A DNA stretch of 32,921 nt, taken from contig JALENH010000200.1 in the NCBI GenBank assembly GCA_022767895.1, positions 1 through 32,921 of the forward strand. The letters run 5' to 3'. The translations under genes and the position numbers were made by a program. This DNA is from Eubacterium sp. (GTDB taxonomy: Bacteria > Bacillota > Clostridia > Lachnospirales > Lachnospiraceae). The notes below the pieces were generated by a model. It worked only from the letters and a program-made list of their open reading frames with translations, made no database searches and was not told the origin of the DNA. Positions 29,790 to 32,921 of the stretch are shown here, piece by piece. Every line of letters begins with the position of its first letter. Within the stretch, counting starts at the first letter, position 1.

Positions 29790-31154
29790 ATGAAAAGATT
29801 GAAGCGTGGCTTTTGGGCCAAGGCGGCAATAGCCATTGCAGCAATTGTAGTAGCGATTGGAATCATTGGTGGAACATCATATGCTTCTAACAATCAGCCG
29901 TTTCTGGGGGATTGCATTGAGTATGGTATTGTCTGCAATTATTTGAATCAAACAGCTGATATGGAGACCAATTTTGCTACGGGTAAGTATCAGGGAAATG
30001 GACATACGAATGGGAATACCGTATCTGATTCAAGAGCCAATTCATCTGGGGAAATTCGAATTGGCGAAGTGGTTGAAGATGTCAAGTTCCGTGGCAACCC
30101 ATTGGTTGTAGTTGACAAAGAAGTCAAGAAGGAAGTAAAGGCTATGCTTGCTTCTGTTTCCAACTATGCAGAATCTGTAGTGGGCAAGAAGGATGTCAAG
30201 ACATCAGCAGACGTAAAAGATGGGAACAATTATAGTATCGACATCACAGATGTGAAAGAGGACGTCGTTTATGTTGATGCAGATAATATGATTGACAATC
30301 TGATGGCTGGAAAAATCCAGAATGGCGGTTTAAAGATTGCACTTCGTGATGATCAGACAATTGTCCTAAATATTACAGAAAAGGATAAGGTTGAGATTCC
30401 TCGATATACACTTACTGTAAAGGATGGTACGAAGACCAATGAGGAGATTGCTGAGTCTGTGATTTGGAATATGCCATATATAAATGATTTAGCTATTTCA
30501 TCTGATAATATGCGTGCTACCATTATTGCACCAAAAGCATTCGTGAATCTGAATGTGACTGGTGAAGGATGGCTTGTCTGTGATACGATTGTCAGAAACT
30601 CTGGTGAGTGGCATATGATTTCTAAAAAGTTGCCGGAAGTAACAGCGACACCGAAAGTGACATCAACACCGAAGATGACATCAACACCGAAAGTAACGCA
30701 AACTAATACACAAATAATTACATCAATGCCAAGTGTAACTCACACTGTTACTACAGTAGTTACAATTTCACCATCGCCATCACCAACTTCAATAATGCCT
30801 ACATCAACACAAACATTGGCACCAACTCCGTCAGTAACACCAACTAATAGTCCAGTTGTTACAATGACACCTAATACGACCATATCACCATCTCCTACTA
30901 TACTAATTAGTGCAACACCGTCAAATGTGCCGGTATATTCCATTGATGAAGATACACCATTAACAAATAAGGAGTTAAGGAATAATGATACGAAAAAGGC
31001 TTCTACGACAAGCAAGAATACGACAACGCTTTTGGATGATGATGTACCATTGTCAGATTCATCACCTGATACCGGTGATACAATAGATATTATATCAATT
31101 TTAATTATTTTCGTCGTTTGCGGAATGTTCATTTTCATTATAATGTTACTATAG
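29790..31154 (+). CDS. Secreted surface protein with Thr/Pro-rich stalk and SPDTGD sorting-like tail
   Basis: A 454-residue exported protein. Seen: a signal peptide (about 1-32), an N-terminal domain with GDCIEYGIVCNYLNQ and METNFATGKYQG, which recalls choice-of-anchor-A-type surface domains (tentative), and a Thr/Pro/Ser-rich stalk (about 285-375) with units such as ATPKVTSTPKMT. An acidic stretch leads to SPDTGD followed by a hydrophobic span that ends the protein at MLL. The usual basic tail after a sortase span is missing, unlike the first surface protein in the window. The 3' third is markedly AT-rich. It may be a stalked adhesin or wall protein; ligand unknown. Confidence 0.75.
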   Translation: MKRLKRGFWAKAAIAIAAIVVAIGIIGGTSYASNNQPFLGDCIEYGIVCNYLNQTADMETNFATGKYQGNGHTNGNTVSDSRANSSGEIRIGEVVEDVKFRGNPLVVVDKEVKKEVKAMLASVSNYAESVVGKKDVKTSADVKDGNNYSIDITDVKEDVVYVDADNMIDNLMAGKIQNGGLKIALRDDQTIVLNITEKDKVEIPRYTLTVKDGTKTNEEIAESVIWNMPYINDLAISSDNMRATIIAPKAFVNLNVTGEGWLVCDTIVRNSGEWHMISKKLPEVTATPKVTSTPKMTSTPKVTQTNTQIITSMPSVTHTVTTVVTISPSPSPTSIMPTSTQTLAPTPSVTPTNSPVVTMTPNTTISPSPTILISATPSNVPVYSIDEDTPLTNKELRNNDTKKASTTSKNTTTLLDDDVPLSDSSPDTGDTIDIISILIIFVVCGMFIFIIMLL

Positions 31155-31175
31155 GTTAATGTTTTATATTTAATT

Positions 31176-31220: not shown

Positions 31221-32372
31221 TTAATCGAGAGTTTTAATTGCATCAAATTTTTGTTGTTCAGTTATTCCAATATATATATTATATGTGGTTCTAATATCTT
31301 TGTGTCCCATAAGTTCTGAAATAGTTTTTATTTCAACTCCGTTTTTTAACAATATGCTACCAAATCCGTGTCGCAATGCATGAGGTGTTAAATCATTATT
31401 CGCATCACATCTACTAAGCATTTGTTTTAATGTTCTAAAGATATTGCGCCTAGTCATAGGAGTCATATTTTTAGTAACACATACATAATCATCTTCATTG
31501 TGATTTTCGTTAAACTTATGAAAATATTCAAATTGTGAGAATGCACGTTTTGACAAAGGTATTGTACGTTGCCGATATGTTTTGGGAAGACTTATAATAG
31601 TTTTCGTTTTAGTTGTTGCATCTCTATCTCTATTTTTCGCTGTAGCATGTGTGTATTTTACTGTTATTGTCCTATTTGACATATCTACATTTTCCCATTT
31701 TAAAGCACATAATTCTGATATTCTTAAACCAGTATACATTATAATAATAATTGCTCTTGCATTGTTTCCATACATATATTCAGTATTTGAATATTCCTTT
31801 TTTCTAAATGCTTCTTGATAAAGTGCTTCGACATCTTCAGTTGTGGCAAAAGGTACTTCTTTTGTTTTTACAGCAACTCTGTCTTCGGAAGGTATCTGTA
31901 TTAATGATAAATCAAAATATGGTAATTCTTCCTTTGACATGCCATATTTTAAACATTGGCGAACAATAGACCAAACTTTTCGTATTGTTCCAATAGAGTA
32001 TTTTTCTGCCAATGAATCTATATATTCTTGAACTAATTCGTAATTTAATATCTTTATATTTTTATTTCCAAAATTACAAGTGTTCATATTAAGGTATTTT
32101 GTAATAATTAGTTCATACGAATCATATGTTTGTTGTTTGAGCTTCTTTTGTCTAGTTGTAGATAACCAATCTAACATATATTCTTCGATTGTTTTAACAC
32201 TAGATTGTTGTATATGAATATTTTGTTTCTTTTTCTTTTTTATTTTTTCTTTTACTTCGTTTATGGTTTTACCGTATGTGTACTTATTATCAGGGTCACG
32301 ATAATATTGATAAGTAACTCCTTTGATAGTTTTAGTTCCCCATGATCCTTCTCCATTCTTTCTTCTTTTCAT
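31221..32372 (-). CDS. int: Tyrosine site-specific integrase
   Basis: Phage/ICE-type tyrosine recombinase of 383 residues. Seen: an AP2-like arm-binding N-terminal domain (KRRKNGEGSWGTKTIKGVTY, about 1-50), a SAM-like core-binding domain (about 60-160), and a catalytic domain with Arg in TGLRISELCAL, HALRHGFGS (His-x2-Arg), GHKDIRTTYNIYI (His and the nucleophilic Tyr). All expected catalytic residues except the poorly conserved Lys are evident. I chose the ATG at 32372, with AAAGGTG about nine bases upstream; GTG 32384 overlaps that site. The gene and its surroundings are much more AT-rich than the left of the window, which fits acquired DNA. Confidence 0.93.
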   Translation of the reverse strand: MKRRKNGEGSWGTKTIKGVTYQYYRDPDNKYTYGKTINEVKEKIKKKKKQNIHIQQSSVKTIEEYMLDWLSTTRQKKLKQQTYDSYELIITKYLNMNTCNFGNKNIKILNYELVQEYIDSLAEKYSIGTIRKVWSIVRQCLKYGMSKEELPYFDLSLIQIPSEDRVAVKTKEVPFATTEDVEALYQEAFRKKEYSNTEYMYGNNARAIIIIMYTGLRISELCALKWENVDMSNRTITVKYTHATAKNRDRDATTKTKTIISLPKTYRQRTIPLSKRAFSQFEYFHKFNENHNEDDYVCVTKNMTPMTRRNIFRTLKQMLSRCDANNDLTPHALRHGFGSILLKNGVEIKTISELMGHKDIRTTYNIYIGITEQQKFDAIKTLD

Positions 32373-32420
32373 ACTACTCAACACCTTTCAGTTTGTTATG
32401 TATGTTATGTAGTTTGTAAA

Positions 32421-32446
32421 ACAGGGTAGAAAAACAGGGTAGAATT
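32421..32446 (+). repeat. Two direct AGGGTAG repeats near int, candidate integrase arm sites
   Basis: ACAGGGTAGAAAA and ACAGGGTAGAATT are adjacent 13-base direct copies. The same motif recurs three times at 32655-32690. The integrase has an arm-binding domain, so these are plausible arm-type sites. Confidence 0.6.
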
Positions 32447-32457
32447 TTTATAAAGAA

Positions 32458-32496
32458 GCTACAAATAACGAATACTCGTTATTTTTCGAATGTAGC
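32458..32496 (-). promoter_or_regulatory. Long hairpin abutting the tRNA fragment
   Basis: A 9-bp inner stem (32463-32471 with 32476-32484, AAATAACGA) with a 4-base loop, and an outer 5-bp stem (32458-32462 with 32492-32496, GCTAC) separated by a one-sided 7-base bulge. It begins three bases after the tRNA-like anticodon stem on the minus strand. Part of the int leader RNA if the promoter at 32716-32744 is used. Confidence 0.5.
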
Positions 32497-32499
32497 ACC

Positions 32500-32542
32500 C
32501 TTCATTACGAGTGAAGTGCTCTACCGACTGAGCTATCGAAGC
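32500..32542 (-). pseudogene. 5' half of tRNA-Thr(CGU), probable attachment core
   Basis: Reading the minus strand from 32542: a 7-base acceptor arm GCTTCGA, D stem GCTC/GAGC with a normal D loop, and an anticodon arm CTTCA-CTCGTAA-TGAAG with anticodon CGT (Thr). After that the sequence stops matching a tRNA: no T stem pairs and no full complement of the acceptor follows. Attachment cores of tRNA-targeting elements often contain the anticodon arm. The retained half here is the 5' one, whereas elements more often carry the 3' half. Confidence 0.7.
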
Positions 32543-32602
32543 ATAACTAATCGTTTATCACCATTTCATGCTAATTTCCGATTGTTTCACCATTTGTTCA
32601 AC

Positions 32603-32630
32603 TTACTGATATTTACTGGTTTTTACTGAT
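32603..32630 (+). repeat. Three TTACTGRT repeats at exact 10-base period
   Basis: TTACTGAT (32603), TTACTGGT (32613) and TTACTGAT (32623) are direct copies on one DNA face. Phased short repeats of this kind are used by excisionases that bend DNA; that role is inferred. A 9-base direct repeat TCACCATTT also occurs at 32558 and 32587. Confidence 0.6.
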
Positions 32631-32654
32631 ACATTCTTGTTTTTTCTAATCAAA

Positions 32655-32690
32655 CTAGGGTAGAAATCAGGGTAGAAATTAGGGTAGTAA
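32655..32690 (+). repeat. Three direct AGGGTAG repeats near the excisionase-like gene
   Basis: AGGGTAG occurs at 32657, 32669 and 32681, an exact 12-base period, in the same orientation as the two copies near int. Together they flank the tRNA-like core on both sides. Confidence 0.6.
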
Positions 32691-32715
32691 ATATATTTAA
32701 GTTTTAACAAAAACA

Positions 32716-32744
32716 ATGATACTATAATCAATATAATTTGTCAA
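32716..32744 (-). promoter_or_regulatory. Promoter reading towards int
   Basis: On the minus strand, TTGACA (32744-32739), a 17-base spacer and TATCAT (32721-32716). The predicted start near 32709 gives int a leader of about 335 bases that contains the arm repeats, the tRNA half and the long hairpin. Confidence 0.75.
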
Positions 32745-32745
32745 C

Positions 32746-32790
32746 AAAAAAATAAGTAGGTAAACTATTCGTCTGTATTACCTACTTATT
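32746..32790 (-). terminator. Terminator of the excisionase-like gene
   Basis: A perfect 13-bp stem, AATAAGTAGGTAA (32751-32763) with TTACCTACTTATT (32778-32790), is followed on the minus strand by a run of T through 32746. It ends the excisionase-like transcript just before the int promoter, so the two genes are separate units. Confidence 0.88.
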
Positions 32791-32799
32791 TCTATTAAT

Positions 32800-32921
32800 T
32801 CATTCTAATATTATCTTTAGCCCTCTATGTTCTTTTAAGAATTTTTCTAAGTCATCTTCAAAAACTCTATATGATGAGCCAATTGCAAATGAGGGGAAAC
32901 CTTTTAATTTCATTAATGTAT
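32800..32921 (-). CDS. Excisionase-like HTH protein, C-terminal fragment (cut by window edge)
   Basis: The last 39 codons are visible on the minus strand, ending at a TGA at 32802-32800; the N terminus lies beyond the window. The segment LKGFPSFAIGSSYRVFEDD followed by LEKFLKEHRG matches the wing and tail of small excisionase/MerR-type HTH proteins (HTH_17, Tn916 Xis-like). Its position upstream of int on the same strand supports an excision or regulatory role. A strong terminator follows its stop. Confidence 0.75.
   Translation of the reverse strand, partial: TLMKLKGFPSFAIGSSYRVFEDDLEKFLKEHRGLKIILE

Follow-up and report, generated by a model that had tools for sequence, protein, structure and literature searches.

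The last ~1.8 kb of the DNA analyzed here most likely belong to a large temperate phage in its unintegrated form. This reading follows from an intact attP, from one relative with the same arm sites and core and another with these arms around a different core, and from a terminator of the large-phage type. The phage DNA is considered to extend from approximately 31084-31171 to the contig end, and its off-site link to a chromosomal surface-protein gene is most probably a join of chromosome and phage reads made by the assembler. The analyzed stretch (the window, 32,921 nucleotides) is the whole of contig C98; the genome, in 332 contigs, totals 2.58 Mb at 90% completeness and appears to be metagenome-derived, judging from its fragmentation and from neighbouring records. 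The left 31 kb contain genes that, named by eye, read as ordinary chromosomal ones. Within the 1.8 kb, the phage identity is based on an integrase, the att layout and one terminator; structural and packaging genes of a large phage were not found in the window.

Organization of the attP region

Read from right to left, the last 1.8 kb comprise the end of an excisionase-like gene, three AGGGTAG words, three phased TTACTGRT words, a tRNA core, a hairpin, two further AGGGTAG words and a tyrosine integrase. The features of the region are as follows.

29790..31154, plus strand: surface-protein gene, chromosomal, whose 3' end meets the putative phage DNA (paralog alignment, relatives, tree)
31084..31171, no strand: stretch where chromosome and putative phage DNA meet (alignment end, G+C, start of phage likeness)
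31176..31217, plus strand: terminator ending CCTATTTTTTACG, large-phage type, at the integrase 3' end (likeness to MT835469.1)
31221..32384, minus strand: tyrosine integrase (PF00589, phrog_1)
32423..32442, plus strand: two AGGGTAG arm-type sites, integrase side (same word in relatives L130 and L132)
32446..32500, minus strand: hairpin between the core and the integrase-side arms (folding)
32498..32545, minus strand: attP core, the 5' half of tRNA-Thr(CGT) (exact match to contig C12)
32603..32630, plus strand: TTACTGRT triple in 10-bp phase, candidate array for the excisionase
32657..32687, plus strand: three AGGGTAG arm-type sites, excisionase side
32716..32744, minus strand: promoter-like TTGACA-17-TATCAT reading into attP (11/12 matches)
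32800..32919, minus strand: 3' end of the excisionase-like gene, cut by the contig end (translation)

The AGGGTAG words start at positions 32423, 32436, 32657, 32669 and 32681, and there are no others in the window. Over the whole window this number is unremarkable (the shuffle mean is 2.3, with five reached in 8 of 100 shuffles). The clustering is unusual, as all five lie inside 265 bp, and none of 5000 shuffles of 32385-32792 contained five AGGGTAG; in the same shuffles no heptamer with at least three G/C occurred five times, and some heptamer did so in 49. The TTACTGRT words start at 32603, 32613 and 32623, in exact 10-bp phase. Three copies by themselves are again unremarkable (reached in 22 of 100 shuffles), and a fuzzy triple, with at most three mismatches in all, was absent from both strands of 50 kb of phage DNA. 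The hairpin has a folding energy of -13.7 kcal/mol (z -3.7), with an equally good fold in one of 200 shuffles. Counts, shuffles and folding thus bear out the initial annotation, which had placed two plus three AGGGTAG, a hairpin and three phased TTACTGRT between the integrase and an excisionase-like gene.

The initial annotation had also held that AGGGTAG repeats scattered genome-wide would speak against its attP reading. Single AGGGTAGWAA words do occur elsewhere in the genome (10 places in all, compared with 23 for the reversed control), but the cluster of three pairs is seen only here. Close AGGGTAGWAA pairs are present in three of 397 family genomes, and since pairs of the reversed control also occur (7 of 397), a single close pair means little. 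Three close pairs in 265 bp were found only in this genome among the 397. The other two pair-bearing genomes have one pair each, with no tRNA nearby and no related integrase adjoining (in one of them, a 27% identical integrase lies 3.4 kb away).

In the integrase, R220, K249, H334, R337, H360 and Y370 are invariant in a four-member alignment, and we take them to be the catalytic residues R, K, H-x-x-R, H and Y. The Pfam search yielded no match outside residues 180-374. The 39-residue fragment of the excisionase-like gene matches no PHROG family, so its name rests on position and on by-eye likeness to the gene beside phage integrases. Promoter-like sites of the type listed above are at chance level regionally (14 found, 13.1 expected).

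Core and target tRNA gene

The core is a 48-bp exact match between the window and C12:9349-9396, covering the first 45 of the 73 nt of an intact tRNA-Thr(CGT) and three nucleotides preceding the tRNA. The initial annotation had described a tRNA anticodon-arm core: a tRNA core is indeed present, but it is larger than the anticodon arm, being the 5' half of the tRNA. Given the 45 nt covered, a tRNA rebuilt by integration would therefore have its 5' half from the phage and its 3' half from the host. This direction is the less usual one among the tRNA-targeting islands covered by the relevant part of the Islander report, where 159 islands have a 5' tDNA fragment and 3760 a 3' fragment (PMC4383910).

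The tRNA-Thr(CGT) target on C12 is complete and unoccupied in the assembly, and its surroundings look undisturbed. No second copy of the core was found in the genome except the tRNA-Thr itself, and none at the join with the surface-protein gene. The contig ends 376 bp past the core, and the window contains no complete tRNA. As in lambda-like attP sites, the integrase lies beside the site, arms are present on both sides, and the core is identical to a chromosomal target. A search of viral contigs for an exact 44-bp core gave no matches, and in two 'phage' records where the core occurs entirely or partly, MT838226.1 and MT836003.1, the tRNA-Thr genes are chromosomal and intact.

In lambda attP, as described in PMC4880445, the integrase is held at the arms by its N-terminal parts and at the core by its catalytic parts, and a row of three excisionase sites bends one arm. 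The window resembles this system in having arm sites that flank the core and a candidate row of three tandem excisionase sites on one arm, and differs from it in that the target is a tRNA gene and the arm and array sequences are other ones. In the actinobacteriophages of PMC10865867 arm-type sites flank the cores, and one of these phages, Hestia, has tRNA-Thr-CGT as its target and a core of 52 bp that rebuilds the tRNA; hosts and phages are different from those considered here.

The gene order in the phage would be excisionase-like gene, attP, integrase, terminator. By analogy with lambda, the AGGGTAG arms would be the binding sites for the integrase's N-terminal part, strand exchange by its catalytic part would take place in the anticodon-loop core, and the TTACTGRT array may serve the excisionase as a binding site that favours excision. 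Integration at tRNA-Thr(CGT) would then send the two arm sets to opposite prophage ends. The sequences themselves show the identity of core and target, the arms and the array, related phages with a layout of this kind, and the intact target; binding, the crossover point, excision control and the size of the phage, as given here, are what we infer.

Relatives of the integrase and of the attachment site

The single-sequence search gave no integrase relative above 43%; its matches comprised 11 loci on genome contigs (22-37% identical) and a single viral one (26%), and among the matches listed the best phage record has 31% and the best plasmid 28%. Integrase matches are present in three of 39 genus genomes, the source included, and the integrase itself in one of them; at E 1e-60 it is found in one of 397 family genomes, which is the source genome. 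Searching with the four-member integrase alignment outperformed the single sequence, yielding 101 viral loci, 80 of them listed. AGGGTAG arms were counted upstream in 75 of these 80 relatives (five with less than 600 bp upstream were excluded). The integrase match starts in the first 72 residues in 43 of the 75; in the other 32 it starts past residue 72, so the counted stretch may miss the att site. Among these 75, at least two AGGGTAG upstream were found only in L130 and L132, and four others have one.

The first of these, IMGVR_UViG_3300050645_000036 (L130), is a 140-kb viral contig with a 42% identical integrase. Like the window, it has AGGGTAG arms on both sides (2637 on one side, 2870, 2881 and 2912 on the other, with AAGGTAG at 2649), a core from the anticodon loop of tRNA-Thr(CGT), and an excisionase-like gene before attP. 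The arms flank TTCATTACGAGTGAA, 15 nt that also occur in the window core. The differences from the window are the short core match to the host tRNA (these 15 nt) and the presence of a complete tRNA-Thr(CGT) gene next to attP. In L132 (117 kb, integrase 37% identical) three plus two AGGGTAG surround a different core, by eye another tRNA half, and L129 (43%) has two plus two arms of the word GTGGTAGTAA.

The 24-kb viral contig IMGVR_UViG_3300022654_000658 (L128) has the same order of excisionase-like gene, attP, integrase, terminator and opposing gene, with two plus three arms and a phased triple. Its parts follow each other as excisionase-like gene, two TGTCCA, core, phased triple, three TGTCCA, integrase and terminator. 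It differs in the arm word, TGTCCA, and in the core, by eye a 3' tRNA half. Moreover, the site has opposite orientations relative to the genes: its three-arm side, where the phased triple lies, is next to the excisionase gene in the window (32423-32687) and next to the integrase in L128 (7179-7460). The phased triple has two mismatches in L128 and, more weakly, three in MT835469.1, a relative of L103; it was seen neither in L103 nor in nine of ten relatives scanned, the tenth (L141) being the same contig as L128.

In MT835469.1 the arm word differs again. As an integrated control, L103 resides at tRNA-Arg(CCG), where the tRNA is whole and the three arms are confined to the integrase side; on the other side there is one lone arm-like TTCACCC, 860 bp away. 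L128, L129 and L130 have the order excisionase-like gene, attP, integrase in common; beyond the integrase, the genes are on the opposite strand in L128, L129 (after one small ORF) and L130, and on the same strand in L133. The contigs of L129, L130, L132, L103 and MT835469.1 have 78-177 kb, that of L128 24 kb. The attP reading of the initial annotation is thus supported by a related phage that has both arms and core in common with the window, and by other relatives in which the layout is similar and the arm words differ. The comparison suggests that an arm-site word is common to integrases that are ~40% identical.

In two other species of the genus (L070:9183-10633 and L071:292-1742), TTTTACACC repeats separate a related integrase from an intact tRNA-Pro(CGG) next to it, and a gene resembling those of chemotaxis receptors lies further on.

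From 31171 on, the window resembles a terminator of MT835469.1 (84% over 50 bp, E 9e-5). The ending CCTATTTTTTACG occurs three times in MT835469.1, always on the strand of the structural genes, and a 20-base version of it is found in nine viral contigs, five of them longer than 80 kb. A 12-base version is present three times in this genome (control, 2), the other two copies having no stem by eye. The ending looks like a late-gene signature in large gut phages.

Join with the surface-protein gene

The surface-protein gene aligns with its paralog on C203 up to 31083 and no further, the tail common to its relatives (TNLxxP ... R/K) is missing in the window, the G+C content falls from 0.366 to 0.225 at the join, and likeness to the phage MT835469.1 begins at 31171. 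On these grounds chromosome and phage DNA meet within 31084-31171, which is not an att site. From the gene order of the relatives, a phage gene would be expected where the chromosome adjoins the integrase terminator. The window gene and the C203 paralog are sisters in the tree (support 0.999). C203 starts inside this second copy of the surface gene, at residue 66 (C203:1-1149), and has a 23-base stretch identical to the first copy. An activase directly follows the surface gene in four of five relatives read; the fifth contig ends inside the gene.

An integrated prophage end (attL or attR) was rejected, as the arm sets flank the core on both sides and the join has no core copy. Integration at the surface gene by the window integrase was also rejected, since attP is complete and, apart from the tRNA, the core occurs nowhere else in the genome. 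A phage-borne origin of the surface gene was rejected too: it has no match in 50,697 phage records at E 1e-5, and of six stretches in viral contigs that fit the peptide pattern, none encodes a relative.

Both arms are thus found next to chromosomal genes on the left because the two kinds of DNA are joined at 31084-31171, at a junction other than att. Among the causes offered for the two arms by the initial annotation, a circular form, that is, unintegrated phage DNA, fits best; the passage from chromosome to phage outside att had escaped it.

Origin of the link

The window integrase did not make the link between chromosome and phage, which is probably an assembly error. This is favoured because the target is empty, neither the rest of the phage nor a right-hand join was found, and the break is at a two-copy locus. 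Assemblies often fail at loci with two similar gene copies. In particular, a second N-terminal part of the surface gene, and hence a right-hand join, was not found in the genome, nor was the rest of the phage by terminase (phrog_2) and portal searches, of which the portal search is weak (0/1). The phrog_2 search recovers terminases of three of four related phages; in this genome it gives two loci only, unlike those. The terminase at C15:3376-4680 (45% G+C, on a 4.7-kb contig) was rejected as belonging to this phage, being unlike the terminases of L129, L130 and L132 (best E 0.068). It is a gene of a different phage.

A repeat common to the join and another contig was not seen, which counts against a chimera, and the contig passes the join without a visible repeat, as would be the case for the main rival, a real non-site-specific insertion that, through illegitimate recombination or a different recombinase, hit the surface gene and left attP whole. 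Such an insertion would also be in keeping with the second surface-gene copy and the activase on C203, starting inside the gene as if something were between the copies, and tandem copies of the surface gene do exist in two of the five relatives read (L073, L074). However, events of this type are generally known to be rare, and neither the right-hand join nor other parts of the phage were found in the genome; we consider such an insertion unlikely.

A tandem-prophage junction, or a prophage that underwent rearrangement once integrated in tandem, would have an attP-like structure, as a tandem lysogen does, and tandems are on record (125 of at least two among 3919 islands in the relevant part of the Islander report, PMC4383910). 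This is highly improbable here: a further rearrangement is needed because phage genes, not chromosomal ones, should follow the integrase, and the tRNA-Thr target is whole in a C12 neighbourhood that looks undisturbed. An integrase resident in the chromosome, with an att site of its own and retained to capture incoming DNA or for some other function, recalls the two genus members with a related integrase (~30-33%) and arm-like repeats next to an intact tRNA-Pro, but is the least probable of the three, as the integrase is unique to this genome in both the genus and the family comparison, and the G+C content and terminator are phage-like.

With the end of the contig read as unintegrated phage DNA joined by the assembler, the paradox of a complete attP beside chromosomal genes is removed. 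It also serves as a warning that, in metagenome-derived genomes, a contig end with an attP may consist of phage DNA that was joined off-site.

Complete tRNA-Thr genes in related phages

In two relatives a complete tRNA-Thr lies between the excisionase-like gene and the arms, with the anticodon CGT in L130 (2542-2731) and GGT in L133 (131 kb; 2599-2777). A second 11-bp copy of the anticodon arm is located between the arm sets (L130:2719, L133:2767), and 11-bp sharing is reached in one of 500 shuffles for L130 and in none of 500 for L133. This arrangement is that of tRNA-dependent lysogeny in actinobacteriophages, as described in part of PMC10865867, and both phages, in which the core repeats no more than the anticodon arm, are candidates for it. 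The window does not have the short core, not rebuilding the tRNA, that marks this scheme, given the length of its core.

We tentatively suggest, holding it somewhat more doubtful than probable, that the window phage and L130 form a natural pair, whose related integrases have the arm code AGGGTAG and, as target, the tRNA-Thr CGT anticodon loop in common, one using a 48-bp rebuilding core and the other a short core with a whole replacement tRNA; L133 shows the replacement-tRNA arrangement for tRNA-Thr(GGT). The authors of PMC10865867, in the part concerned, call the tie between tRNA-dependent and tRNA-rebuilding systems unclear and consider tRNA-dependent lysogeny plausible in other phages, and a possible evolutionary pair of this kind bears on that relation. 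If true, tRNA-dependent lysogeny would exist in large phages outside actinobacteriophages, and there would be a lineage where the switch between the two schemes is traceable.
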